From contig CAMYJO010000035.1 of the NCBI GenBank assembly GCA_947258755.1, forward strand, positions 15,072 to 49,295: a stretch of DNA of 34,224 bases, written 5' to 3'. The notes under the pieces are model-generated. The model was not told the DNA's origin. It was given only the letters and a program-made list of their open reading frames with translations, and searched no databases. Below, one piece after another: positions 13,131 through 32,152 of this stretch. Source of the stretch: an uncultured Gammaproteobacteria bacterium (GTDB taxonomy: Bacteria > Pseudomonadota > Gammaproteobacteria > JAADHQ01). Every line of letters begins with the position of its first letter. Position 1 is the stretch's first letter. A program made the position numbers and the translations under genes.

Positions 13131-14408
13131 GTGCAGAAAAGCGATCAAAAAACAGACCCGGAACAATACTATGAACTGCTCAGGAAAAGCAGGTTCATGG
13201 AAAACGCTCCTGAGCAGTTGATTCGCCAGGCGGCTACCATTGGTATCGAGATATCACTACCCTCTGGTCAAACGCTTTTTCACAAGGGTGATTTCGGCGA
13301 CTCGATGTATGTCATCCTCAATGGCCGAATTCGCGTTCACGACGGGGACTTGTCACTCAACATACTGTCACCCGGCCATGTCATAGGTGAAATTGCATCC
13401 CTGGGATCGCTTAAAAGAACTGCATCAATCACTGCCGAGGACGATGCCACCCTGTTTGAAATCAACTGCAAAACCCTTTTCTCCACCCTGGCAAATGAGG
13501 AAGGCTTTACCAAATCAATTGTATCTATGCTTTGTAGTCGTGAGAAAAGCATGGCCACCAAGGTCACCGACAGGTCCATGCGAGTTCGTACACTGGAAAG
13601 GGAGCTGGAAATCGGCCGTGAAATACAGTCACACTTTCTGCCTGATACACTACCCGTCATTCCGGACTGGAACCTGTCTGCCTATTTTCATGCCGCGCAT
13701 GAAGTTGCCGGGGATTTTTATGACGCATTTGAAATAAAGTCTATTAACCGCATAGGACTGGTGGTTGGCGATGTCTGCGACAAGGGTGTAGGTGCGGCCC
13801 TGTTTATGACTTTATTCAGAAGCCTGATCAGGGCCACTGCGCTTTCAATGGATTTCAATAACTGGTCGACTGCCCCGGATGCATCATATGGTCGCAGGCG
13901 TGAAAACCAAGTCCCACGAAACAGGGTAGATGAATGTCTACTTGACAGTATCCAGAGCACGAACAATTACATCGCCCAGACCCATGGCGGCACCAGCATG
14001 TTTGCATCGGTATTTTTTGCAATAATCGATCCGTATACCGGAAACCTGAGCTATATCAATGCCGGTCACGAGGAACCCGTTATTTTCGGCAAACAGCAAA
14101 TCAAACAACGACTGGAAACAACTGGACCCGTTGTCGGTATTTTCCCGGGTGCCAGGCATGAAATAGCCTCAACCAAACTTGATCATGGAGACAGTCTACT
14201 GATATTTACTGATGGCATCACAGAAGCCGTTTCAGAAAGTGGTGAACAGTACTCTGAATCACGCCTGATGGATACACTGGCAAGTTACTGCGGCACTGCC
14301 GACAGCTTGTTAGACAACATAATACAATCACTGAACAATTTCACAAAAGGAGCCAGGCAGTTCGATGACAATACTATTTTAGCAATCCATAGAAACCTTA
14401 CACATTAA
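13131..14408 (+). CDS. Cyclic nucleotide-binding / PP2C (SpoIIE-type) serine phosphatase
   Basis: The 425-residue cytoplasmic protein begins at GTG 13131. Residues 22-125 are a CNB domain whose phosphate-binding cassette (GEIASLGSLKRTAS, 86-99) keeps the glutamate and the arginine (R96) that bind the cyclic phosphate, so real cAMP or cGMP binding is plausible. A linker helix (RTLERELEIGREIQSHFLP) leads into the SpoIIE phosphatase domain, about 180-420, with metal-binding D195 (GDFYD), D214 and D217 (GDVCDKG), D361 (FTDG) and D412/D413 (FDDN). Enzymes of this type dephosphorylate STAS antagonists to trigger partner switching. The STAS gene follows 33 bases later and the kinase gene after that, so the three form one module. 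The domain fusion implies that a cyclic nucleotide controls the switch. Confidence 0.93.
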   Translation: MQKSDQKTDPEQYYELLRKSRFMENAPEQLIRQAATIGIEISLPSGQTLFHKGDFGDSMYVILNGRIRVHDGDLSLNILSPGHVIGEIASLGSLKRTASITAEDDATLFEINCKTLFSTLANEEGFTKSIVSMLCSREKSMATKVTDRSMRVRTLERELEIGREIQSHFLPDTLPVIPDWNLSAYFHAAHEVAGDFYDAFEIKSINRIGLVVGDVCDKGVGAALFMTLFRSLIRATALSMDFNNWSTAPDASYGRRRENQVPRNRVDECLLDSIQSTNNYIAQTHGGTSMFASVFFAIIDPYTGNLSYINAGHEEPVIFGKQQIKQRLETTGPVVGIFPGARHEIASTKLDHGDSLLIFTDGITEAVSESGEQYSESRLMDTLASYCGTADSLLDNIIQSLNNFTKGARQFDDNTILAIHRNLTH

Positions 14409-14441: not shown

Positions 14442-14807
14442 ATGAGCGATACACTACACATAGCAATCTCAAATGAAGCAGCATCTGTCACGGTTTTGCA
14501 ACTGACCGGTCCTCTTGATGCCAACACGCAAAAAGATCTGGAAGAAAAAGCTAACGAAGTTATCGACGGCGGTGCAAAGCACATTGTTCTGGAAATGAGT
14601 AAGGTGTCATACATGGGTAGTGCGGGCTTGAGGGCCATTCACGCTATCACAAAAAAACTGGGTGACGATAGCGATAATGCAATCAAGTCTGATGACCTGA
14701 AAATAGCCAGCCCATCAGATGAAGTCAGAAAAATATTCAAGACTCTTGGTTTTGACACCTACATCGACATACTGGACGATCTGGATAGTGCGATTGCATC
14801 TTTTTGA
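14442..14807 (+). CDS. STAS-domain anti-sigma factor antagonist (RsbV/SpoIIAA-like)
   Basis: This 121-residue protein is a single STAS domain. The conserved motif at the start of helix 2 reads VSYMGSAGLRAI, and S60 stands where antagonists are phosphorylated by their cognate kinase. The unphosphorylated form would bind the HATPase protein and release its target. The C-terminal half ends with KTLGFDTYIDILDDLDSAIASF-like residues typical of the fold. An AAGGA box (14430-14434) lies seven bases before ATG 14442. It lies between its presumed phosphatase (13131) and kinase (14838) genes. Confidence 0.92.
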   Translation: MSDTLHIAISNEAASVTVLQLTGPLDANTQKDLEEKANEVIDGGAKHIVLEMSKVSYMGSAGLRAIHAITKKLGDDSDNAIKSDDLKIASPSDEVRKIFKTLGFDTYIDILDDLDSAIASF

Positions 14808-14837: not shown

Positions 14838-15251
14838 ATGTTGTTAAAAGTCAGGGCAGGACTGTCTGAGCTGGAAAAAATAAGGGAATTCGTAGCAAGT
14901 GCAGCAAACACTATGGCTGTCGATGAAAAACTTGTTGGTGACCTGAAGTTGGTCGTGGATGAAGCGGCCACCAATATCATCAACCATGGCTATCAGGGCA
15001 AACCCGGTGACATAGAAATTGAAATGAGGGCCAGTGGGGCCGACCTGATCATTACATTGCGCGACCACGCCCCTGTTTTTGATCCGACCTCACACCAGGT
15101 GCCTCTCCCCAAATCACCCGCCGAGGAAGAAAAACCCGGCGGCTTTGGTTTGCACCTGATCCGGAACATTGCTGATGAGATGAAACACAGGGTTTCAATC
15201 GATGGAGGCAATGAACTTTCGCTGATAAAATATAATGCGATAACACTTTAG
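14838..15251 (+). CDS. HATPase_c anti-sigma factor-type serine kinase (RsbW-like)
   Basis: The 137-residue protein is a lone GHKL ATPase of the RsbW/SpoIIAB group. The N box is LKLVVDEAATNIINHGY (E42, N46), the G1-like box RDHAPVFDP (D76) and the G2 box PGGFGLHLI (102-109). Such proteins phosphorylate a STAS antagonist and sequester a sigma factor or another effector. The G1 box lacks its usual glycine (DHAP rather than DxG), an oddity that may affect nucleotide binding. Start ATG 14838 is 30 bases after the STAS stop; no strong Shine-Dalgarno is seen. No sigma factor gene follows, so the effector is unknown. Confidence 0.9.
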   Translation: MLLKVRAGLSELEKIREFVASAANTMAVDEKLVGDLKLVVDEAATNIINHGYQGKPGDIEIEMRASGADLIITLRDHAPVFDPTSHQVPLPKSPAEEEKPGGFGLHLIRNIADEMKHRVSIDGGNELSLIKYNAITL

Positions 15252-16838: not shown

Positions 16839-18113
16839 ATGACGGCGCATGAACTGACAACCGATAATGACAAGTCCTGTGAACAACTCGAGCTGTTGAC
16901 CAAGGTATTGCAGGAATTTTCAACCTCACTGGATATCGATATTACGTTGCAGCATGTCACCAACCTGGTTAAACAGTACCTCGATGCAGAAGGCGTATCA
17001 CTATTCCTGTTGGAGAATGACGACAAGGAACTGGTGTGCCGGGTATGTGCATCGATCCCCGATATCAGTGGCGTCCGCCTCGGTGCCGAAGAGGGCATTG
17101 TTGGGCGTGCCTTGCGTGAAAAAAAGACCCAGATCGTTCGTGATGTCAACAAGGACCCCGATTTCTACAAGGGTGTGGATGAACGCAGTGGCATCAAGAC
17201 ACGATCAATCCTGTGTGCACCATTGATGCTGAAAGACCAGCGCATCGGTGCACTGGAGGCAATCAATAAAAATTCTGATGACGGCCTGTTCGAAGAAGCT
17301 GATCGCAACCTGCTGACGATTCTGGCCAATACCTCGGCGATGGCCATTCATAACTCGCGCATGGCAGAGGAACTGGTATTCCAGGAGCGCACACGCAGGG
17401 AGCTGGAGCTGGCAAGGGAAATCCAGGCTGCCTTGCTGCCTGATCACTGTGAGGACTATCCGGTATACGGAATCAACATGCCGGCGCGCATGGTCTCTGG
17501 TGACTTTTATGACCACTTCGAACTGGATGATGGACGAATCTGTTTCGGGCTGGGTGATGTATCCGGCAAGGGGATCAATGCATCATTACTGATGGCCAAG
17601 ACGGCTTCGATTTTCAGGTGCCTCGGTAAACGCATCCAGTCGCCATCCGAGCTGCTGTCCATACTCAACAACGAACTGCATGCTAATGCCACGCGCGGCA
17701 TGTTTGTAACCATGGTGTCCGGTATTTACGACCCGGTCGGGCAAACGCTGACGATGGTCAACGCCGGGCACCATCCGCCACTGCTGCGCAAGGCCAATGG
17801 CGAGATCGAGGCATATGAGATCGCATCACCGCCACTGGGCATCCTGCCGGATATCAGTTTCGAGGAATACCCGATTTCGATCGATAGCGGCGACCTGTAC
17901 CTGTTTACCGATGGCTTGACCGAGTGTTGGCTCCAACGCGGACAGCAGCTCGGTGTCGATGGCGTCATCGACATGATTATGCGCTTCTCCGATATCAAGG
18001 CCACCGACCGCCTGCAGGCCATCGTGCAAAGTGTCACGCGCTGGAAACGCGAACAAACTGGCTACCTCTTTGACGATATCACCATGATGCTGATCTCAGC
18101 CAGCAAAAGATAA
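16839..18113 (+). CDS. GAF-domain PP2C (SpoIIE-type) serine phosphatase
   Basis: The 424-residue cytoplasmic protein has a GAF sensor domain (about 16-165; VSLFLLENDDKELVCRVCAS, GIVGRALREKKTQIVRD, SILCAPLM), a helical linker (RTRRELELAREIQAALLPD) and a SpoIIE phosphatase domain (about 195-422). Metal-binding aspartates lie in GDFYD (211-215), GDVSGKG (229-235), FTDG (346-349) and FDDIT (411-415), so it should be active. A GAF ligand or redox signal would control dephosphorylation of a STAS protein. The nearest candidate substrate is the STAS protein at 14442. It is separated from that module by 1.6 kb of element debris. It ends 54 bases from the convergent GFA gene. Confidence 0.93.
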   Translation: MTAHELTTDNDKSCEQLELLTKVLQEFSTSLDIDITLQHVTNLVKQYLDAEGVSLFLLENDDKELVCRVCASIPDISGVRLGAEEGIVGRALREKKTQIVRDVNKDPDFYKGVDERSGIKTRSILCAPLMLKDQRIGALEAINKNSDDGLFEEADRNLLTILANTSAMAIHNSRMAEELVFQERTRRELELAREIQAALLPDHCEDYPVYGINMPARMVSGDFYDHFELDDGRICFGLGDVSGKGINASLLMAKTASIFRCLGKRIQSPSELLSILNNELHANATRGMFVTMVSGIYDPVGQTLTMVNAGHHPPLLRKANGEIEAYEIASPPLGILPDISFEEYPISIDSGDLYLFTDGLTECWLQRGQQLGVDGVIDMIMRFSDIKATDRLQAIVQSVTRWKREQTGYLFDDITMMLISASKR

Positions 18114-20615: not shown

Positions 20616-22466
20616 CTAAAAGGTCAGGAAACCGATTTCCTGGTCTGCCATTCGCAATTTCTTTGATAGGTCCAACGCAATAGCGGACAGTAATTTCAGC
20701 TGCAAGACCTGTATATCGCGCTCATCTTTATGTTCTGCAAATTTTTCATAGTCCAGCATCAGGCACTTGCTGTCGGTGATCGCAACGACGTCGGCAGAGC
20801 GTTTTCTTTGTTCGAGCATGGCCTGTTCACCGAATGAACCGCCGGCGCAGATCGTCGCGATATGCTGATGACGATCATGGTTCAGCGGCAGATAAATGCC
20901 GATTTCGCCAGCGATGAGAAAATACAGGCTGCTGTCCTGATCGCCGGCATGACAGACATATTCGCCTGCTGGAAAACTGCGTTCAACTAGGAAGGTAGTG
21001 AGTTGGCCCAGTTCATCAGGTGTCAGGCTTTCACATAAGGGTTGTTTTTCCAGTGGCACCGGTTCAGTCAGGAACGGTGAGATTCCGGCATCCTCAAGCA
21101 AGATATTCTCATAATGGACCAGTGCCTGCTCCAGATCATCGATCGCAAATAATTGTTTGACCTTTTCTTTGCCAATGATTTGCTTGATATATTTTGTCAG
21201 TCCGCTTTTATCTGCCGTACCTGTCAATATCAAGGTTTTGTTCTGTGATTGTAATAACTCATCCAGCCAGATAATCAATTGCGCGGCCGCCTTGTCACAG
21301 GAAGAAGCGCGGCGTAAATCGATAACAATATGCCTGGCGTCCGTGGTATGTGTGCATACGTATGAGGTCAGGATTTCAGAGGTGGTAAACATCAACTCGC
21401 CGCTTGCTTCAATGATGGCGACCTTGTGTCCGTCTCGGGAAAGAACCTCCAGCATCTCTGTATTTCTGGCTTTTTTCGAGCGCATTTGTGTCAGGTTGTA
21501 AGCGGTGCGTATGACATCGACAGAGCTGTAGCGTTCATTGGAAAAAGCATGCAGGTTCAGGTCCTGAGACAAGGCACGACAGACGGCAATACCGCGTGCG
21601 CTGTTACCCTTGGCGTCCAGGCGGGGTGAAAATACCGCAATACCCAGCCTGTCTGGCAGGACCGCGATGATGCCGCCACCAACACCGCTTTTGGCGGGCA
21701 GGCCGATCTGATACAGCCATTCACCGGAACCGTCGTACATCCCACAGGTTGCCATGGCGCTCAGCACCCTCGGTACGTGTTCAGACGACAGGGCCCTGAC
21801 TCCTGTCACCGGGTTGACCCCCTCGTTGGCCAACGTGGCGGCCATATTGGCCAGATCACGACAGGTCACATTGATCGAGCATTGTTGGAAGTAGACATCC
21901 AGGACTTCATCAATGTCCTGGTCCAGTATATTGGCATTGCGCAGCATATGGCCTATGGCGCGATTGCGATGACCGGTCGATTTCTCCGAACGAAAAACAT
22001 CATAGTCGATGATGAGACCATGTCCGGCATATTTGCTATAAACATCGAGAATGCGCTGTATTTTTTCAGCGGGAGTATCACCGCTGACAAGGGCAGACGC
22101 GGCAATCGCACCTGCATTGATCATCGGATTACGAGGTCGCCCCGTCGCATGCTCAAGGCTGATGCGGTTGAATGCCTCGCCCGAAGGCTCAACATTGATT
22201 TTCGAGAATATATCCTCTACACCGTTATCCTCGAGAGCAATGCCATAGGTCAACGGTTTGGAGATGGATTGGATCGTAAATGGCAGGCGTGTGTCACCGG
22301 TCTGATAGACATGACCGTCGACAGTCACAATCGCAATACCGAATGCATCTGCATCGACTTTGGTTAATTCCGGAATGTAGTCGGCAACCTCACCTTCCTG
22401 GAGACTTGCATACGTTTGGTGCAAATCATCAAGGTACTTATGCAAAAATGGTGCATACTCGACCAT
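20616..22466 (-). CDS. glsA: Glutaminase-STAS-cyclic nucleotide-binding domain fusion
   Basis: The 616-residue protein has three parts. Residues 1-310 are a serine-dependent glutaminase that converts glutamine to glutamate and ammonia: S67-x-x-K70 (QSISKPLTYG), N113/N117 (PRNPMINAGA) and GVGGGIIAVLPDRLGIAVFS are in place. About 335-440 is a STAS domain, but where the phospho-acceptor serine is expected (D-S-S-G) the sequence reads CDKAAAQL, so it is probably not phosphorylated. About 470-600 is a CNB domain with its glutamate and arginine kept (FGEQAMLEQRKRSADV), so cyclic-nucleotide binding is plausible. Ordinary bacterial glutaminases are about 310 residues. AAGGA lies nine bases before ATG 22466. 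Two CNB-only genes lie upstream on the same strand. Confidence 0.93.
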   Translation of the reverse strand: MVEYAPFLHKYLDDLHQTYASLQEGEVADYIPELTKVDADAFGIAIVTVDGHVYQTGDTRLPFTIQSISKPLTYGIALEDNGVEDIFSKINVEPSGEAFNRISLEHATGRPRNPMINAGAIAASALVSGDTPAEKIQRILDVYSKYAGHGLIIDYDVFRSEKSTGHRNRAIGHMLRNANILDQDIDEVLDVYFQQCSINVTCRDLANMAATLANEGVNPVTGVRALSSEHVPRVLSAMATCGMYDGSGEWLYQIGLPAKSGVGGGIIAVLPDRLGIAVFSPRLDAKGNSARGIAVCRALSQDLNLHAFSNERYSSVDVIRTAYNLTQMRSKKARNTEMLEVLSRDGHKVAIIEASGELMFTTSEILTSYVCTHTTDARHIVIDLRRASSCDKAAAQLIIWLDELLQSQNKTLILTGTADKSGLTKYIKQIIGKEKVKQLFAIDDLEQALVHYENILLEDAGISPFLTEPVPLEKQPLCESLTPDELGQLTTFLVERSFPAGEYVCHAGDQDSSLYFLIAGEIGIYLPLNHDRHQHIATICAGGSFGEQAMLEQRKRSADVVAITDSKCLMLDYEKFAEHKDERDIQVLQLKLLSAIALDLSKKLRMADQEIGFLTF

Positions 22467-22713
22467 CAGATTGAATCCTTGGAATTGATTAACTGTTTGA
22501 TCTGGATACTGTTATCCATATCACTGTAAAGATATTATCGTTGAAAATGCATTTTATATGCCATGTCCTGTCAGGCATGCACCTGACAACACTACCGTGA
22601 CAGGGTGATGTGTATCCGAATGGTATGGTGAAGGGACGAGCAGGCAGGACAAATAGCGAAACCGGAACAGGACTATCCCTGATGTTTCAGCCCCGATCCG
22701 CTTATACGATTCG

Positions 22714-23286
22714 CTATTCAGGTGTGATGCGGCGCTCGTCGTTTTGTCTTCTATCGATTCCCTGACGCCGGTCATGGCGGCGATACTGCCATAGCATACT
22801 TTCCAGATTTTCAGTCGTGACGTTTTCGAGTTTTGAAAAGATGACGCTTTTCAGAAGCTGGATGATGTTGCGGTAATTGCGTGTCAGTTGCCTGGCAATG
22901 ATATGCTGAAAATGGTGAGCCAGTGTAGACTTGCTATCGTACAGCATGATAAATGCTGACTTGGGTAACGAGGCGGTGGTCACCTCACCATCAGCCACAT
23001 AGGAAACCAGACTTTTTTCTTTCGTGACAAAACTCAATACGCCGAACAGGTCACCCGGATACAGTGTCTCCAGAGTCTGATGTTCATCGGTGTCCAGGTC
23101 CTGGTGATACAGATTGACCTTGCCTTCAATAATCAGATGCATGTCCTTGCCGGTTTTACCCTTGTGGATAAAGACATGCCCATCCGGATGCCGTGTAACG
23201 GCCATCGCTTTTTCAAGCACTTCAAGGTCCTTGCTTGAGATGGCTGAAAAATCAGGTACGGTTTTCAAGTAACTGACAAGGTTCAT
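22714..23286 (-). CDS. CNB-fold protein with degenerate ligand pocket (second gene of pair)
   Basis: ATG 23286 is the start: GGGAGGT lies six bases upstream and the ATG overlaps the upstream stop codon as TAATG, so translation is coupled. The 190-residue product is a cyclic-nucleotide-binding fold (about 12-125, FIHKGKTGKDMHLIIEGKV) with a basic, arginine-rich tail (RRHDRRQGIDRRQNDERR). The phosphate-binding cassette reads FGVLSFVTKEKSLVS, without the canonical glutamate and arginine, so it probably does not bind cAMP or cGMP in the usual manner. No DNA-binding domain is present, so it is not a CRP-type regulator. It may act as a protein-interaction partner. Confidence 0.85.
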   Translation of the reverse strand: MNLVSYLKTVPDFSAISSKDLEVLEKAMAVTRHPDGHVFIHKGKTGKDMHLIIEGKVNLYHQDLDTDEHQTLETLYPGDLFGVLSFVTKEKSLVSYVADGEVTTASLPKSAFIMLYDSKSTLAHHFQHIIARQLTRNYRNIIQLLKSVIFSKLENVTTENLESMLWQYRRHDRRQGIDRRQNDERRITPE

Positions 23287-23840
23287 TAGTGTACCTCCCT
23301 GATTGTATGTAGTTTCTGATAGATTTTCTTGGCCCATTCGACCGGATTGAGGTCATCTTCGGGTGCCGAACCTGGCTGATCAGGCAATAATTTTTCATAT
23401 AACAATGCTTCACCATTCTGGATTCGCGAACCCAGATGTTGGGATATGATATGTAACAGGTGTCCGGTAATATTCGGATAACTTTTATCCAGTTTAAAGA
23501 ATTCATCCCTGGATAACATCAGCAAAATTGCATCTGTATCGGCTATCACCGATGCGCTGGATGTGTCTGCATCCAGCATCGATACTTCACCGGCCAGCTG
23601 ACCGGGTTTTATTGGCCCCAGAGTGATTTTTTCTTCGCCGGCCATTATGTAACTTGTGAGCGTGCCCTTGATGAGCAGGTAGAGCTTGTCATTGGGCTTG
23701 TCGTAATCCAGGATGATGCTCCCATTGTCGACTTGCACTGTCTCCATTGCATCCAGCAGATGATCGATTTCATCCTTGCTCAAACCACGGGTGATGGCTG
23801 GAAACAGTTTTTTCAGATCGCTGATATTAATTTTATCCAT
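23286..23840 (-). CDS. CNB-fold protein with degenerate ligand pocket (first gene of pair)
   Basis: ATG 23840 (MDKINISDLKKLFPAITRGL) has GGAG six bases upstream and gives 184 residues; in-frame sequence further upstream lacks a ribosome-binding site. The CNB fold covers about 20-130 (KLYLLIKGTLTSY, KPGQLAGEVSML). Its cassette GEVSMLDADTSSAS keeps the glutamate (E85) but has serine (S94) where the phosphate-binding arginine should be. The C-terminus (EWAKKIYQKLHTIREVH) is helical. It is cotranscribed and coupled by TAATG to the next CNB gene, and together they precede the glutaminase fusion on the same strand. Ligand and role are unknown. Confidence 0.85.
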   Translation of the reverse strand: MDKINISDLKKLFPAITRGLSKDEIDHLLDAMETVQVDNGSIILDYDKPNDKLYLLIKGTLTSYIMAGEEKITLGPIKPGQLAGEVSMLDADTSSASVIADTDAILLMLSRDEFFKLDKSYPNITGHLLHIISQHLGSRIQNGEALLYEKLLPDQPGSAPEDDLNPVEWAKKIYQKLHTIREVH

Positions 23841-24492: not shown

Positions 24493-27066
24493 GTGGGGAA
24501 TTCACTCGATCTACTGCCGTTTAGTCAAAAGAGTTTTATCAAACCGTTCATATTGGGTGTTTGTTTGACCCTTACTGCAGATTTCATGTTACCTGGCGCT
24601 GTTTACGCGGAAGATACAGCCAAGCTTGGTACTATCGAGGTAACGGGTTATCGCATCAAACGCACCGATGCGGAAGGTCCTTCGCATGTGTTGCAAATAG
24701 AACGTGATGCGATAGAAAAATCGGGGGCCAATACCTTAACAGAATTACTTTCTAGTATTACTGTGGGTACAGTGGCCACTGAAAGCTTTGCATTGACTGA
24801 TGCACCAGGAGCGTCGGGAATCAATTTAAGGAACCTGGGACTTAACCGTACACTGGTACTGATAAATGGCCGACGCAGTGCTCCGAATGCTGCGGCAACT
24901 AATACTATCGAATCATTCGTCGATCTTAACGGTATACCACTTGTAGCCGTTGAACGTATTGAAATTCTGAAGGACGGAGCTTCAGCTATTTATGGTGCAG
25001 ATGCTGTTGCGGGCGTAGTCAATATCATTTTACGTAAAGATTACGAGGGTGCTTCAGTCACTGTCGGTGCTGGGCAAACATCGGATGGTGATGCTGGTGA
25101 AAACACATTGAGCCTACTTGCTGGTAAGGCTTTTGGTAAAACTAATGTCACCGTTGGTTTTAACTATTTTACACGTGATGGGATGTTGATATCTGACATC
25201 GACGGGGTAAATGCACTCGATGATCCGACTGGATTTCCAGGATCCTATTTCGTTCCCAGTTTGAATGACATAAGTGTAGATCCTGCCTGCGGTGATCCAC
25301 AATACCCCAGTTCTTCAATTCAGCCTTTGGGGCCATTTGCAACTGTCTGTCATTTAAATCTTAATCCATTTACGACTTCGATACCTGAAACTGATAGATA
25401 CAGTATTACATTATTGGCCAATCATGAATTGAATGCTGATACAAGTGCCTTCGCAGAAATAAGCTTTAATAATAGTGAAACAAAGACACAGCTTCCTCCT
25501 ACGCCACTAAATCCGGACAATGGAACATTCTCAAATCCTGTTCCTGATTCTGCATTTAATCCTTTTGGTGAGACAGTCTTTCCGATAATACGTTTTGGCG
25601 AAGTTGGAAACCGTGTTTCAGACGCAGATGCAGATAGTTTGAGACTGGTTTTGGGCATCAAGGGCATTTTAGGTGAGCTCGATTGGGAATCATCAATCCT
25701 TTATTCGAAAAGTACTATTGATGAGGATATTCTAAACTATATTTCCAGAAGCGCCTTACAAGCAGCATTATCCAATTCTACTTTTAATCCATTTGCTGGG
25801 GCTAATAACTCGCAGGCCGTGCTGGATTCTCTCAGGGCTGAAATTTACCGTAAATCTGAAACATCATTAGTAGCAGCAGAATTGTTCGCGACGGGTCCTG
25901 CCGGGGAATGGGAAATGGATGGAGGACCTGTCTATGTTGCCGGAGGTGTGCAACTACGGCATGAGGAGTTGGAAGATGCATTCAATGATGTTGTGCAGTC
26001 TGGTGACGTGTTAGGTTTTGGTGGTCTTACATCTGCAAGCAAGGGTGATCGAGATGTGTTGTCTGCGTTTGTTGAATACTCAATGCCTGCTACTGAAGAC
26101 CTTGAACTGCAGGTAGCCGCACGTCTGGAGAATTATGATACCCATGGTAACACCCTGGATCCAAAACTGGGCTTCAGATACCAGGTCAACGACATGTGGA
26201 TGATCCGCGGATCAACAGGTACTGCTTTCAGGGCACCAAGCCTCGCCGAGAATTATATTGCCGATAATGTAACATTTCAGGGCTTGATTGACACTGAACG
26301 TTGCAATGCCGTAGGGCTTTCTTGTACAGCAAATGATACTCAGATCAATGCTGGAGGTAATCCAGAGCTGGATCCGGAAACCGCAAGTTTCTTCAATCTG
26401 GGTGCAGCAGCTCAGATTACAGATGATTTAAGTATGACGATTGATTATTGGAGAATAAATCATCGTGACATAATTGCCCAAAGAGATGCCCAGCGAATTC
26501 TGGATACTGACGGGCTAAATACAGAATTGGTCGTTCGTGGTGCACCTACAGTTGCGGGAGATCCGGGTCCAATTCAGTTTGTCAATACAGACTATACTAA
26601 TTTTGCCGCGCAAGAAACCAATGGTATTGATTTGGACATCAAATACGATACCGGCAGCTGGTATGCTGGGACATTTGCATCATATTTAATCGAGTTTAAA
26701 AGGAAAACAAACGATATCTTTGAAGGATACGATGGTAAGCGTGTTGGTTTTTATTCATACCCACATCTGAAAACGCAGGCGTATGCAGGGATAAATCAGG
26801 GGGACTGGAGTGGTCAGGTTACTGCTAACTATCGCAGTTCAATAGATCATGACTCTTCGGGTAAGTTAGGTAGTCACTCCACTGTAGACCTTCAGGCTAA
26901 CTATACTGGTTTTAAAGATCTGACTCTGACTGTGGGAGGCGTTAATATCTTTGATAAAAATCCCCCAACGTTTCCTACTAATGGTGTAGATCGTTTTGGC
27001 TATGAATGGGGCACCATCGATCCACGGGGTGCGTTCTGGTATATGCGCTTAAAGTATGATTTCTAG
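24493..27066 (+). CDS. TonB-dependent outer-membrane receptor
   Basis: The 857-residue protein starts at GTG 24493 behind AAGGGTG. A signal peptide covers about 1-40 (ending AVYA). A TonB-box-like segment (LGTIEVTGYRI) follows, then the plug domain to about 180 with LVLINGRRSAPN and VERIEILKDGASAIYGADAV. The remainder is a 22-strand barrel ending FWYMRLKYDF with the terminal phenylalanine needed for outer-membrane assembly. Loop cysteines in DPACGDP...TVCHLN and TERCNAVGLSCTAND are likely disulfides. The substrate is not evident; this long-plug class transports siderophores, cobalamin, peptides or glycans. The gene lies 88 bases before a complete TonB system, which probably energises it. Confidence 0.93.
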   Translation: MGNSLDLLPFSQKSFIKPFILGVCLTLTADFMLPGAVYAEDTAKLGTIEVTGYRIKRTDAEGPSHVLQIERDAIEKSGANTLTELLSSITVGTVATESFALTDAPGASGINLRNLGLNRTLVLINGRRSAPNAAATNTIESFVDLNGIPLVAVERIEILKDGASAIYGADAVAGVVNIILRKDYEGASVTVGAGQTSDGDAGENTLSLLAGKAFGKTNVTVGFNYFTRDGMLISDIDGVNALDDPTGFPGSYFVPSLNDISVDPACGDPQYPSSSIQPLGPFATVCHLNLNPFTTSIPETDRYSITLLANHELNADTSAFAEISFNNSETKTQLPPTPLNPDNGTFSNPVPDSAFNPFGETVFPIIRFGEVGNRVSDADADSLRLVLGIKGILGELDWESSILYSKSTIDEDILNYISRSALQAALSNSTFNPFAGANNSQAVLDSLRAEIYRKSETSLVAAELFATGPAGEWEMDGGPVYVAGGVQLRHEELEDAFNDVVQSGDVLGFGGLTSASKGDRDVLSAFVEYSMPATEDLELQVAARLENYDTHGNTLDPKLGFRYQVNDMWMIRGSTGTAFRAPSLAENYIADNVTFQGLIDTERCNAVGLSCTANDTQINAGGNPELDPETASFFNLGAAAQITDDLSMTIDYWRINHRDIIAQRDAQRILDTDGLNTELVVRGAPTVAGDPGPIQFVNTDYTNFAAQETNGIDLDIKYDTGSWYAGTFASYLIEFKRKTNDIFEGYDGKRVGFYSYPHLKTQAYAGINQGDWSGQVTANYRSSIDHDSSGKLGSHSTVDLQANYTGFKDLTLTVGGVNIFDKNPPTFPTNGVDRFGYEWGTIDPRGAFWYMRLKYDF

Positions 27067-27154
27067 TATTACGGATTGTCAATTAGTTACATACAGGAAT
27101 CTGATCAATGGCTGAATATGTAAATATCAATCTATAAAAGTAAAAAAATATATA

Positions 27155-27967
27155 ATGCAGGTTAATGGGCTCATGATAAAAATCAGCACCAATGCAAAGC
27201 TATACATCCCTGTCATACTGTTGTTCGGCATCTATGCCATGGGTTTAACTAAAGCTCAGGCCGCCGACAACACATTAAAGAAATCAATATCCGTCCAGAG
27301 CAATACCAACAAGGCAGCGGCCAAATCCCAGAAGCGTATCAATCGTATAGCCGATGAAAGCGACAGGCTGTTGGATGAATATCGTTATACACTGAGGAAG
27401 ACAGAAAGCCTGAAAGTCTATAACGATCATATTGAAAAAATTGTTAATGCGCAGAATGTAGAAACCAGTTCAATTAGTGAGCAAATACGCAGGATCGACG
27501 ATACCAATCGTGAAATCATTCCGTTGATGCTGAAAATGCTCGATGCCCTTAACAAGTTTGTCGAGCTGGACATACCTTTCCTGCAGCAAGAACGCCAGCA
27601 ACGTCTGGATACCCTGGCCAGCATGATGGAGCGGGCGGATATTACTACATCGGACAAGTTCAGGCGCATCATGGAGGCCTATCAGATTGAAACGGAATAT
27701 GGGCGCACGATCGAGGCCTATAAAGCACAATTGCGCAATGGTTCTGCTGAGCAAACGGTCGAATTTCTCAGGGTCGGACGTCTGGCGCTGTTTTATCAAA
27801 CGCTGGATGCACGGGAATCGGGTATGTGGAACCAGACATCGAGAAATTGGGAAAAGCTGCCTGATAAATACCGTTCGTCGATCAGGCAAGGGGTTCGCAT
27901 CGCCAGAAAACAGAGCGCACCGGACCTGTTAACCCTGCCTATCAATGCACCTGAGGTCATACAATGA
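27155..27967 (+). CDS. DUF3450 family periplasmic protein
   Basis: The 270-residue frame opens at ATG 27155; ATG 27173 (MIKISTNAKLYIPVILLFG) is an alternative that also keeps the signal peptide, ending about AQA. The mature protein is nearly all alpha-helical with coiled coil (RINRIADESDRLLDEYRYTL, IRRIDDTNREIIPLMLKML, QQERQQRLDTL). This is the DUF3450 family, typically the first gene of ExbB/ExbD/TonB-like clusters in marine gammaproteobacteria. It overlaps the next gene by ATGA, so they are translationally coupled. A periplasmic accessory role in TonB energisation is inferred from context; no biochemical function is known to me. Confidence 0.9.
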   Translation: MQVNGLMIKISTNAKLYIPVILLFGIYAMGLTKAQAADNTLKKSISVQSNTNKAAAKSQKRINRIADESDRLLDEYRYTLRKTESLKVYNDHIEKIVNAQNVETSSISEQIRRIDDTNREIIPLMLKMLDALNKFVELDIPFLQQERQQRLDTLASMMERADITTSDKFRRIMEAYQIETEYGRTIEAYKAQLRNGSAEQTVEFLRVGRLALFYQTLDARESGMWNQTSRNWEKLPDKYRSSIRQGVRIARKQSAPDLLTLPINAPEVIQ

Positions 27968-29319
27968 AAATTCTGACTTCGTTCATACTGTGGCTGGCGC
28001 TGATCAATTTCCCGTTGCTGGCCCATGCAGCTGCTGCCGATATCAACACGCTGGATCAGTTACTGCAACATGTACGCAAGACCAAAACACTGGATACGGC
28101 CGAAAACAGAAAACGCGAAGTACAATTTATCGCGCAGAAGGACCAGCGCAAGCGTCTGCTGGCAGAGGCGCTCAGGGAGTTAAAAACGCAGGAAAAGAAG
28201 GAAAAGACACTAAAAGCGCAATTCGATGCCAATGAAAAGCTGCTGACTCAGGAAGAGGAAAAATTGCACATGAGTCTGGGCTCATTGGGTGAATTGTTCG
28301 GTGTCGTGCGCCAGGTCGCTGCAGATACCCATGCCATTCTTGAACAATCGCTGGTAACAGCACAAAATCCGGGGCGGCAAGCATCACTGAAACCATTGAT
28401 GGCCAGCAAATCGACACCCGATATCAATGAGCTCGAGGAGCTGTGGCTGGCGCTGCAGGATGAGATGACCAATTCAGGCAAGGTGGTCAGCTTCCCGGCC
28501 GAGGTAATCGGGGTTGATGGCCAGGCCTCGAGGCAGCAGGTTACCCGTGTTGGTGTGTTTAATGTTGTGTCCAATGGCAAGTATCTGCGTCATATAACCG
28601 AGACCGGTCAGCTGGTGGAACTGGCACGCCAGCCGGCCAGTCGCTACCTGGATTTGGCTGCCGGTCTGGAATCAGCAAGCCAGGGTGTACATGCAGTGGG
28701 TATCGATCCATCCAGGGGTTCGATCATGTCGCTGCTGGTACAGACGCCTGACCTGGGCGAGCGTGTCCAGCAGGGTAAGCTGATTGGCTATATTATTATC
28801 GCTATCGCTGCTATCGGCTTATTGATCGCGCTAGAACGGATGATCAGGTTACAAATCATCAAACGACGTATCAATGCACAGATGAAAACAACCGAACCAT
28901 CGGCCAGCAATCCACTCGGTCAAATCATGTCAGTCTATCAGAGCAACAGCTCACTGGATGCCAACAGTCTGTCGCGAAAGCTCGATGAGGTGGTTCTGAA
29001 AAACATACCGCCACTGCAACGTGGTATCTCGACGATCAAGATACTGGCAATGATCGCGCCGTTGCTCGGTTTGCTCGGCACAGTAACCGGCATGATCGAA
29101 ACCTTCCAGTCGATTACGTTGTTTGGCACCGGTGACCCGAAACTGATGGCCGGTGGTATTTCGCAGGCATTGGTCACCACGGCACTCGGGCTGGTGGCGG
29201 CCATTCCGCTGATTCTGTCGCACACCTTTGTCAATAGCCGGAGCAGGCATATCATCGATATTCTCGATGAGCAGAGCGCCGGTTTTCTTGCCTTGCAGAC
29301 GGAACAGGGCAAGACCTGA
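27964..29319 (+). CDS. Extended ExbB/TolQ-family proton channel protein (TtpC-like)
   Basis: The 451-residue protein is longer than a normal ExbB (about 230) because of an N-terminal extension: signal peptide 1-23 (ending AHA), then a long coiled coil with KEVQFIAQKDQRKRLLAEAL-type residues to about 115 and a periplasmic domain to about 260. A helix at about 275-292 (GYIIIAIAAIGLLIALE) precedes the MotA/TolQ/ExbB domain, with LAMIAPLLGLLGTVTGMIETF and GGISQALVTTALGLVAAIPL. The arrangement matches TtpC of the Vibrio TonB2 system. The start ATG overlaps the DUF3450 stop and its own stop overlaps the next start (TGATG). Confidence 0.9.
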   Translation: MKILTSFILWLALINFPLLAHAAAADINTLDQLLQHVRKTKTLDTAENRKREVQFIAQKDQRKRLLAEALRELKTQEKKEKTLKAQFDANEKLLTQEEEKLHMSLGSLGELFGVVRQVAADTHAILEQSLVTAQNPGRQASLKPLMASKSTPDINELEELWLALQDEMTNSGKVVSFPAEVIGVDGQASRQQVTRVGVFNVVSNGKYLRHITETGQLVELARQPASRYLDLAAGLESASQGVHAVGIDPSRGSIMSLLVQTPDLGERVQQGKLIGYIIIAIAAIGLLIALERMIRLQIIKRRINAQMKTTEPSASNPLGQIMSVYQSNSSLDANSLSRKLDEVVLKNIPPLQRGISTIKILAMIAPLLGLLGTVTGMIETFQSITLFGTGDPKLMAGGISQALVTTALGLVAAIPLILSHTFVNSRSRHIIDILDEQSAGFLALQTEQGKT

Positions 29320-29840
29320 TGATGTACCTGCTTGAAACACGCGAAGTTTTGGCGGATTTCTTCGAGGCCGGCGGGCCGGTGCTATGGTTTATCCTCGTCG
29401 TCGCGATCTTGTTATGGACATTGATCATCGAGCGCTACTGGTTTGTGTATTTTGTGCATCCGGCGCGGGCCACGCTGCTGAAGCAGCAATGGCATGACAG
29501 AACGGACAGGCAATCATGGTATGCCGAGCGGATCCGTGAGTGTTATATCTCAACTGCCCGGGGCAACCTGCACAGGTCATTACCCATCATCAATACACTG
29601 ATTGGACTGTGTCCGCTACTGGGTCTGTTCGGTACTGTTACCGGCATGATTCACGTGTTCGATGTCATGGCAGTGGCCGGTACTGCCAATGCAAGGGCGA
29701 TGGCATCCGGGGTATCCTATGCCACGATCCCGACCATGGCAGGCATGGTGGTCGCGCTATCGGCGCTGTATTTTCGCATGCATTTGCACAACAAGGTCAA
29801 GCATGAAACGCGCAAGTTAACCGATATACTGGATGTATAA
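29319..29840 (+). CDS. exbB: ExbB-like proton channel protein
   Basis: The 173-residue protein is a short ExbB/TolQ homologue with helices at about 18-38 (PVLWFILVVAILLWTLI), 90-112 (LIGLCPLLGLFGTVTGMIHV) and 130-150 (GVSYATIPTMAGMVVALSAL). It would form the pentameric inner-membrane channel with ExbD that converts proton-motive force into TonB motion. The start is ATG 29319 or the adjacent ATG 29322, overlapping the previous stop. Both a TtpC-like and a compact ExbB occur, as in TonB2-type clusters. Confidence 0.92.
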   Translation: MMYLLETREVLADFFEAGGPVLWFILVVAILLWTLIIERYWFVYFVHPARATLLKQQWHDRTDRQSWYAERIRECYISTARGNLHRSLPIINTLIGLCPLLGLFGTVTGMIHVFDVMAVAGTANARAMASGVSYATIPTMAGMVVALSALYFRMHLHNKVKHETRKLTDILDV

Positions 29841-29855
29841 ACAGGGTCATTATCC

Positions 29856-30263
29856 ATGAGTCGTCGAAGATCTGAACAGGAAGAAGACAGCGAAATCAAC
29901 ATGACACCGATGCTCGACATCGTATTCATCATGCTGATTTTCTTCATTGTCACAACCTCCTTCGTCAAGGAGTCCGGCATCGATGTCAATCGCCCCAGTG
30001 CCAATACCGCCGAGCGCAAGGAACGTGGCAATATCCTGATCGCCATCAACCAGAACAACGAAGTGTGGATGGACCGGCGTAATATCGATATCCGCGCCGT
30101 GCGCGCCAATGTCGAGCGTTTTCGCGCCGAGAATCCCGAAGGTTCGGTAGTGATACAGGCCGACACGGATGCGCGGACAGGTATTCTGATCCAGGTCATG
30201 GACCAGACCCGGCTGGCTGGTGTGACTAATATCTCCATCGCCGCGGATCCAGACGCGCGTTAG
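29856..30263 (+). CDS. exbD: ExbD/TolR-family biopolymer transport protein
   Basis: The 135-residue protein has a charged N-terminus (SRRRSEQEEDSEINMTPM), one transmembrane helix (LDIVFIMLIFFIVTTSF) with the proton-carrying aspartate D21, and a periplasmic ExbD domain (IDVNRPSANTAE, IAINQNNEVWMD, VVIQADTDARTG). It is the partner of ExbB in the proton channel. It lies 15 bases after exbB and nine before tonB. Confidence 0.94.
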   Translation: MSRRRSEQEEDSEINMTPMLDIVFIMLIFFIVTTSFVKESGIDVNRPSANTAERKERGNILIAINQNNEVWMDRRNIDIRAVRANVERFRAENPEGSVVIQADTDARTGILIQVMDQTRLAGVTNISIAADPDAR

Positions 30264-30272
30264 ATCAGGTCA

Positions 30273-30920
30273 ATGCGTTATTCCTTGTCATTATTGTCCG
30301 CCTTGCTGGTTTCAGGATTGCTTTTCCTGTTAATGCATTTCATGGTCTCGGGCGGGCAGGGACGGATAGCCGATACCCGCACTTATTCGGTCGTCGATTT
30401 TGTCAGAGTTAAGGCGGACGAGCGCGTTGACAGTCGCCGCAGAAGCCTGCCAAAGAAAACTACTGTACCCGAGCCTGTGCCAAACAAGCCGCAACGTACA
30501 GCGCGGGTCACATCCAATACACCGGTCAACATGGCGCAGTTGACCATCGAGGCTCCACCAATAGATGGTATCAAGGTGCAAAGCGGCCTGTTCCTCGGCT
30601 CGTTCATCAAACAGGGCCAGGATAGCCAGGATTTGGCCGGTCTACCTGATGGTGATGTTCAGCCACTGTTGAGGATCGCTCCGCAATATCCACGCCGCGC
30701 GGCGATCAAAGGGGTGGAAGGCTGGGTAAAGATTGCTTTTACGATTCAGGGTGACGGTACCGTCAGCGATCCGCAGGTCATCAATGCCAAGCCATCGAGG
30801 ATATTCAATCGCGCAGCATTGACTGCGATCAAGAAATGGAAATTCAGGCCGCGTATGGTCGATGGTAAAGCGGTGCCAAGGAAAGCGGAACAGGTCATCG
30901 AGTTTTCACTGGCGAAATAA
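30273..30920 (+). CDS. tonB: TonB-family energy transducer
   Basis: The 215-residue protein has an N-terminal anchor helix (LLSALLVSGLLFLLMHFMV), a periplasmic linker that is short and poor in proline repeats (TVPEPVPNKPQ), and a C-terminal TonB domain (IAPQYPRRAAIKGVEGWVKI, VSDPQVINAKPSRIFNRAAL, AIKKWKFRPRM). The short linker is typical of TonB2-type proteins, which need extra partners such as TtpC to span the periplasm. It transmits energy to outer-membrane receptors, most likely including the receptor at 24493. Confidence 0.93.
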   Translation: MRYSLSLLSALLVSGLLFLLMHFMVSGGQGRIADTRTYSVVDFVRVKADERVDSRRRSLPKKTTVPEPVPNKPQRTARVTSNTPVNMAQLTIEAPPIDGIKVQSGLFLGSFIKQGQDSQDLAGLPDGDVQPLLRIAPQYPRRAAIKGVEGWVKIAFTIQGDGTVSDPQVINAKPSRIFNRAALTAIKKWKFRPRMVDGKAVPRKAEQVIEFSLAK

Positions 30921-30925
30921 CAGAT

Positions 30926-32152
30926 ATGAACAAGACTATTGAAAACAAATTGATCAAATGGCTGTCGATAGGGCTGCTGTGCAGCTGTTTTGCTCATAGC
31001 GCTGTCGCCGTTGGGCTGTTGACGGAAAGAACCTACAAGAAACTGTCCAGGATTCACGAGCTGATTGGCGATAACAAATACAGGGATGCATTGACCAGGC
31101 TGGATGCGCTGTCAAAGCGAATAAGAAACAACAAGTATGAAATAGCGCTGGTCAACCAGACCTATGGTTACATACACGCCACCAGAGAAAATTATCCAAA
31201 AGCCATTGCCTACTATAAAAAGAGCCTGGACAGCGGCACACTGGACAAGCGCCTGATCAGTGATATCCGCTTCGCCCTGGGACAGCTCTACATCCTCAGT
31301 GGAGAATATCGCCAGGGCATTACGATCCTCGCTCCGATGCTGGATTCCGCTGAGCGCTCAACGGCACAGGTACAGGCGCTGGCCGCCAGTGCCTATGTCG
31401 AATTAAAACAATATAACAAGGCGGCCGGGCTACTCGAGTCAGCTATAGGCAAGTCGGCACGGCCACGCGACAGCTGGCTGCAATTGTTACTGTCCGTGTA
31501 TTACCAGCTGAAACAGTACACAAAAGCGGCCCAGCTGCTGGAAACCCTGGTGGCCCGCTATCCACAAAAGAAACTGTACTGGGATCAGCTGACCAGCGTG
31601 TATTACCGGGCCAAAAAACCGCTTCAGTCACTGGCGACACTCGAGCTGGCCTACACTCGTGGCCTGCTCAAAAACGCTAAGGATCTGAATAACCTGATCA
31701 GTCTGTACCTGCTCAATAATATCCCGCTCAAGGCTGCGCAGGTACTCGAACAGGGGATGGAGCAGGATGTGATCAAGGCCAATGAAAAAAATCTGCTCAA
31801 ACTGGCGGACATCTGGTTAATGGCCAGGGAAGTGGACAAGGCATTGCGGGCCTACCGCAAGGTCTCTGCACTGAGGCCCAATAACGATATTGATTTCAAG
31901 CGCGCCCAGCTGCTGATGGCCGAGCAACGCTGGGGCGATGTCATTCAACTGACCGGGCAAATCATCAAGCGCAAGCCGGGCACGCAACAGCTGGCACGGG
32001 CCTACTGGTTGCAGGGCATGGCGCATTTCGAAGACAGGGATTATCAGCAGGCGCTGGCGGCATTCAGGAAGATCGATTCGACGAGCAAATATGCTGTAGA
32101 ATCAAGACGGTGGATCGAGCAGATCAACACGGTTGTGTCATTGCTGGACTGA
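30926..32152 (+). CDS. Exported tetratricopeptide-repeat protein of the TonB cluster
   Basis: The 408-residue product has a signal peptide (about 1-29, CSCFAHSAVA) and a mature region made of about nine TPR units (for example YGYIHATRENYPKAIAYYKK, ALGQLYILSGEYRQGITIL, QLLLSVYYQLKQYTKAAQLL). It follows tonB by five bases and closes the cluster. In the gammaproteobacterial clusters I know, a TPR gene commonly ends this operon; it may be a periplasmic scaffold that links TonB or TtpC to receptors. No clear terminator follows its stop. Confidence 0.9.
   Translation: MNKTIENKLIKWLSIGLLCSCFAHSAVAVGLLTERTYKKLSRIHELIGDNKYRDALTRLDALSKRIRNNKYEIALVNQTYGYIHATRENYPKAIAYYKKSLDSGTLDKRLISDIRFALGQLYILSGEYRQGITILAPMLDSAERSTAQVQALAASAYVELKQYNKAAGLLESAIGKSARPRDSWLQLLLSVYYQLKQYTKAAQLLETLVARYPQKKLYWDQLTSVYYRAKKPLQSLATLELAYTRGLLKNAKDLNNLISLYLLNNIPLKAAQVLEQGMEQDVIKANEKNLLKLADIWLMAREVDKALRAYRKVSALRPNNDIDFKRAQLLMAEQRWGDVIQLTGQIIKRKPGTQQLARAYWLQGMAHFEDRDYQQALAAFRKIDSTSKYAVESRRWIEQINTVVSLLD

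Follow-up and report, generated by a model that had tools for sequence, protein, structure and literature searches.

Two overlapping genes encode a co-inherited pair of CNB-fold proteins with degenerate pockets in several families of Gammaproteobacteria

Introduction

CNB domains are usually assumed to be readers of cAMP or cGMP, and in their pocket a glutamate makes the ribose contact and an arginine the phosphate contact. A report on the trypanosomatid PKA regulatory subunit agrees with these roles and describes a protein in which the pocket arginine is replaced, purine nucleosides are bound and cAMP is not needed (PMC10959531). The proteins closest to the two described here, CNB-A and CNB-B, are found among several such systems. 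Crp/Fnr proteins (CAP, GlxR, MtbCRP) are among the top structural matches and have the same CNB barrel and long C-helix, but they carry an HTH, whereas CNB-A and CNB-B lack it and have lost pocket residues. The stand-alone CNB protein Mfla_1926 (PDB 3gyd), with about 180 residues, resembles the pair proteins in build; it is among the best structural matches of CNB-A and is a sequence-profile match of CNB-B. In the regulatory subunits of PKA and PKG two CNB domains act together, whereas here they are split over two genes. The trypanosomatid PKA regulatory subunit, a structural match of CNB-B that through its replaced arginine partly resembles the CNB-A pocket, has two CNBs per chain, and the second glutamate reported for it (PMC10959531) is missing from the bacterial pair, which is not known to have a kinase partner. 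The tandem-CNB family TIGR03896 (bacteriocin-type transport-associated) is remote, the pair scoring 38.6 and 29.6 where 161 is required. A narrow literature search returned nothing on degenerate CNB proteins that form a pair in bacteria, and no paper on glutaminase-STAS-CNB proteins or on CNB proteins in connection with partner switching.

Results

The pair was found in a stretch of 34,224 nucleotides, referred to as the window, from contig C35 of the 3.2-Mb assembly of an uncultured gammaproteobacterium (G000) of the same genus as MAG HyVt-415 (G001). A preliminary description of the locus had reported two genes overlapping by TAATG and encoding small CNB-fold proteins devoid of DNA-binding or enzymatic domains. 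Both statements hold, the former in the open reading frames and the sequence, where GGGAGGT stands 5' of the CNB-B start, and the latter in the Pfam matches and AlphaFold2 models (Table 1).

Table 1. Positions of the CNB pair and of the features discussed with it; positions refer to the window except for the last three rows, which give those of the named loci.
Feature	Position	Strand	Remark
CNB-SpoIIE phosphatase	13131-14408	+	G047 relative 71% identical, near the pair there
STAS	14442-14807	+	G047 relative 70% identical, near the pair there
HATPase_c_2 (HATPase kinase)	14838-15251	+	G047 relative 54% identical, near the pair there
GAF-SpoIIE phosphatase	16839-18113	+	76% identical to G047 relative
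Glutaminase-STAS-CNB fusion	20616-22466	-	247 nt downstream of CNB-B
Gap between CNB-B and glutaminase gene	22467-22713		
Inverted repeat	22569-22588		TGTCAGG-CATGCA-CCTGACA
CNB-B	22714-23286	-	190-aa stand-alone CNB protein; Arg-rich C-terminal tail
CNB-A stop/CNB-B start overlap	23284-23288	-	TAATG, 1 nt shared
CNB-A	23286-23840	-	184-aa stand-alone CNB protein; ATG at 23840; GGAG upstream
TonB-dependent receptor and following genes	24493-32152		
HEAT-repeat/NTT-like + CNB locus, L024	5564-8686		own genome, contig C14
HEAT-repeat/NTT-like + CNB locus, L018	12179-15303		
HEAT-repeat/NTT-like + CNB locus, L050	5329-7572		

PF00027 was the sole Pfam match of both CNB-A (E 5e-14; 52.4 bits) and CNB-B (E 1e-14; 54.4 bits), the cut-off being 27.5 bits, which places both proteins within the CNB profile; NCBIfam gave weak matches far under the cut-offs. 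The Pfam matches include no HTH or enzymatic domain and the models contain no HTH, and the C-terminal HTH of a Crp/Fnr transcription factor is thus absent from both proteins. The AlphaFold2 models, computed from input alignments of seven rows, show a CNB barrel followed by a long C-terminal helix in each protein and are confident in the CNB core (mean pLDDT 81 for CNB-A and 79 for CNB-B). Solved structures matching the pair were CRP/GlxR, the regulatory CNBs of PKA and PKG and the stand-alone 3gyd. The long helix of CNB-B is amphipathic when compared with shuffled sequences (p 0.01); that of CNB-A shows no amphipathicity beyond shuffles (p 0.47), and a CRP-like coiled-coil dimer is therefore unsupported from the CNB-A side.

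Alignment of the pockets confirmed the earlier observation that one cassette has serine in place of the arginine and the other has lost both glutamate and arginine. In the window the CNB-A pocket reads AGEVSMLDADTSSASV, with the glutamate present and serine in the arginine column, and the CNB-B pocket reads FGVLSFVTKEKSLVSY, with valine for glutamate and serine for arginine. Neither protein therefore holds the glutamate and arginine together, as a functional cNMP receptor would. In the tree alignment the CNB-A orthologs retain the glutamate in 11 of 11 cases and the arginine in none, while the CNB-B orthologs have leucine or valine instead of the glutamate (0/12), the leucine being found in all 11 relatives of the window CNB-B, and lack the arginine in 11 of 12, the sole carrier being G047. 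A single arginine stands two residues ahead of the pocket column in the CNB-A of G182, and one residue ahead of it in the six f57 CNB-B proteins aligned; judged by position, these near-column arginines could partly offset the loss. As controls from the same genome, the CNBs of the glutaminase fusion, the CNB-SpoIIE phosphatase, a CNB-C protein, a 158-aa CNB protein and a Crp-like protein all have both residues. The arginine is missing also from a 180-aa CNB protein (Glu, His) and a CNB-GGDEF protein (Glu, Thr), so that arginine loss by itself has other examples in this genome; loss of the glutamate is confined to CNB-B among the same-genome CNBs compared.

The distribution of the pair was examined with CNB-A and CNB-B profiles in a class sample of 369 genomes, in which seven genomes carry both genes, one carries CNB-B alone and none CNB-A alone. 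The CNB-B profile gave eight strong matches of 135-324 bits (G000, G001, G047, G059, G095, G096, G182 and G331), followed by three Crp/Fnr proteins at 69-73 bits, and the CNB-A profile gave seven (216-309 bits; the same set minus G331), the next match scoring 88 bits. In the family of G059, CNB-B was present in six of eight genomes, three of them new. A scan of genome-collection contigs with two short peptide patterns gave seven loci, four of which were records already counted; the record counts are accordingly no census. In total, 14 records bear CNB-B (the window, G001, G047, G059, G095, G096, G097, G099, G100, G182, G331 and the contigs of L033, L034 and L037), and the number of distinct sequences is smaller, since L033 is identical to L032 (the same as G097) over the pair. 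Besides the window, the pair thus occurs in 12 gammaproteobacterial records, with one more holding CNB-B alone, and CNB-A lies directly upstream of CNB-B in 13 of the 14, the exception being G331, which has no CNB-A. A phylum sample of 398 genomes added to the window genome only three matches, all in family f207 and scoring about 70 bits, of which two are Crp/Fnr-like chains. The G001 pair, on the 3.8-kb contig C113 (L022, L035), differs little from the locus of G059, a genome of another family. With dS between the two pairs at 0.03-0.05 in spite of the different families, and with the pair absent from G002 and G003 of the genus of G001, this copy probably reflects misbinning or a recent transfer.

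The genes overlap at all 11 junctions printed, by 4 nt (ATGA) in seven and by 1 nt (TAATG or TGATG) in four. Pairwise dN/dS, in eight comparisons per gene, was 0.13-0.34 for CNB-A and 0.07-0.36 for CNB-B, the two most distant comparisons being rough (dS > 1); purifying selection thus acts on each of the two genes. In the gene tree, CNB-A (99/95) and CNB-B (100/97) form separate clades with similar inner branching; the tree does not support either member being a recent duplicate of the other. The distances within the two clades correlate closely (mirror-tree r 0.98, 12 genomes), which mostly reflects shared descent and is not taken as evidence of contact. We read the overlap, the dN/dS values and the similar trees as co-inheritance of a functional two-gene unit. 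Furthermore, orthologous pairs from other families show the overlap and the degenerate pockets again, which hence exceed chance; the original observation is right, and the conservation of the pair makes it stronger than first stated.

The glutaminase-STAS-CNB gene had been described as downstream of the pair on the same strand, which is correct, and as forming a three-gene locus with it, for which we found no support. In the flanking DNA of the 13 other CNB-B-bearing records no glutaminase was found near the pair or near CNB-B; every flanking ORF was searched by BLAST in 12 of them and the ORFs of the G001 contig were read directly, the flanks varying in length, with little sequence on one side or both in G001, G097, G099 and G100. 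Full-length fusions were present in five of the 369 genomes (G000, G331, G002, G319 and G018), next to three further glutaminase matches without the extension, and none of the other four fusions had a CNB pair beside it within flanks of at most 1.5 kb (255 bases upstream in G018). Only G331, besides the window genome, holds both CNB-B and the fusion; it has them on separate contigs and carries no CNB-A. In the tree the glutaminase CNBs form a clade of their own (100/97) apart from CNB-A and CNB-B, and an origin of the pair by recent duplication of the glutaminase CNB finds no support there. The known glutaminase with STAS extension (NCBIfam NF002134) is matched by residues 8-416 of the window fusion, to which a CNB is added, with a score of 439, under the cut-off of 557; such a glutaminase does not accompany the pair in a conserved way.

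The gap between CNB-B and the glutaminase gene showed neither a promoter-like nor a terminator-like site, and co-transcription of the two is thereby neither shown nor excluded. The inverted repeat in this gap, which has no T run, is possibly an operator. The STAS domains of the five aligned fusions have no serine at the column of the 'GSAGL' serine of the stand-alone STAS and may therefore not be phosphorylatable antagonists; the fusion CNB has glutamate and arginine in four of the five.

In the window, a set of partner-switching genes is separated from the pair by 4.6 to 8.3 kb. In G047, CNB-A, CNB-B and a GAF-SpoIIE gene follow one another on one strand, with 81 nt between the pair and GAF-SpoIIE; a HEAT-repeat membrane protein and a small CNB protein are encoded ahead of the pair, and beyond these, on the opposite strand, lie the HATPase, STAS and CNB-SpoIIE genes. 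The HEAT-repeat protein of G047 is presumably NTT-like, Pfam recognizing its HEAT part only. SpoIIE, STAS and HATPase genes adjoin the pair in G047 and lie near it in the window; the other records showed none next to it. The pairs of the window and G047 are 31-34% identical and are not sisters in the trees, and their shared neighbours may for that reason be a coincidence or independent arrivals. At E <= 1e-40, GAF-SpoIIE was found in six of 18 genomes (G000, G001, G002, G003, G047 and G094); it stands without an adjoining pair in G001, G002 and G003, and the G094 copy is at a contig end. Among the 11 CNB-B-bearing genomes searched, three have it (G000, G001 and G047); being absent from the other eight, it cannot be the general output of the pair.

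Other neighbours differ between lineages. An RF-1-domain gene precedes the pair in several genomes of f57, and in L034 an argininosuccinate-lyase-like gene, assigned by reading, lies downstream on the opposite strand. A HEAT-repeat, NTT-like protein followed by a small CNB protein is encoded in the window's own genome as well as in G047, and in G331 the two are fused into one protein about 1 kb from CNB-B. Upstream of CNB-A in the window, a TonB-dependent receptor gene, covered by the domain search, stands before genes whose reading suggests an ExbB/ExbD/TonB set and a TPR protein.

Discussion

We propose, as a reading with roughly even prospects, that one cNMP-independent regulatory module, probably a heteromer, has CNB-A and CNB-B as its two dedicated subunits. 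The two proteins would be made together from the coupled genes and probably assembled with each other. Both keep the CNB fold while having lost residues for ordinary cAMP or cGMP binding, the arginine in CNB-A and the glutamate in CNB-B, and because of this loss the module would most likely act without a cNMP. It might be an adaptor or a regulatory subunit that works through protein-protein contacts; alternatively, CNB-A might bind a different, probably uncharged ligand, with CNB-B as a structural pseudo-receptor. Since there is no output domain, the module would have to act in trans on another protein, for which the nearby SpoIIE/STAS/HATPase partner switch would be the best candidate in the window lineage and in G047, a weakly supported assignment.

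The ligand option, taken as a reading in its own right, has CNB-A sense a ligand other than a cNMP, for example a nucleoside, with CNB-B as its structural partner, by analogy with the trypanosomatid PKA regulatory subunit. CNB-A has the ribose-side glutamate and a small or polar residue instead of the arginine, as TbPKAR has threonine or asparagine in a CNB reported to bind inosine (PMC10959531), and the trypanosome protein is among the structural matches of CNB-B. CNB-A does, however, lack the second glutamate, the source of nucleoside preference in TbPKAR (E311/E435), which would stand two residues after the ribose glutamate; it has S, N, G or A at that place, and we regard such a receptor as a tentative possibility, somewhat improbable as it stands. 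That the pair regulates the partner switch, for instance by holding or releasing GAF-SpoIIE, is suggested by the one-strand arrangement with its 81-nt gap in G047 and by the 54-76% identical relatives near the pair in the window, but the absence of GAF-SpoIIE from most CNB-B genomes searched, its occurrence elsewhere without an adjoining pair and the sequence divergence between the pairs of the window and G047 make this unlikely. It is similarly doubtful that the two proteins share a transcript but have different targets and work apart: CNB-B does stand without CNB-A in G331, close to the NTT-HEAT-CNB-like gene, but CNB-A was never seen without CNB-B in the sample, and their overlap and order are kept across families while the neighbours change.

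The preliminary description had also suggested that the two proteins are decoys or regulatory subunits for the CNB of the adjacent glutaminase. The sole link is the adjacency in the window, 247 nt on the same strand, together with the co-occurrence of CNB-B and the fusion in G331; the genes occur independently in all other records examined on either side, as far as their flanks reach, and the glutaminase CNBs are not closely related to the pair. We consider this role very unlikely and the adjacency probably accidental, so that of the earlier reading the coupled, co-inherited and pocket-degenerate pair stands, while the glutaminase triad and the decoys do not. Nor is it credible, save at the very margin, that CNB-A and CNB-B are decaying relics of Crp-like regulators. 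The pocket residues and the output domain are indeed gone, but the frames are intact and the residue pattern is constant across the orthologs compared; purifying selection rules out pseudogene decay.

The subunit reading has a wider form, in which an obligate heteromeric pseudo-receptor serves several gammaproteobacterial lineages as a portable two-part cNMP-independent switch with varied outputs, the SpoIIE-type partner switch included; at present this is rather speculative and unlikely to hold in full. The present analysis also corrects the assignment of the pair to the glutaminase gene. Conserved over several families, with fixed and different pocket losses in each partner, the pair is a clean case in which to look for other roles of CNB domains. 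It poses for the bacterial CNB fold the alternatives of another ligand or a pure protein-interaction module, and as a defined pair it makes the question of role directly testable. If the wider form of the reading is true, the fold of a cAMP receptor would have come to serve as a protein switch in two parts that needs no cyclic nucleotide.
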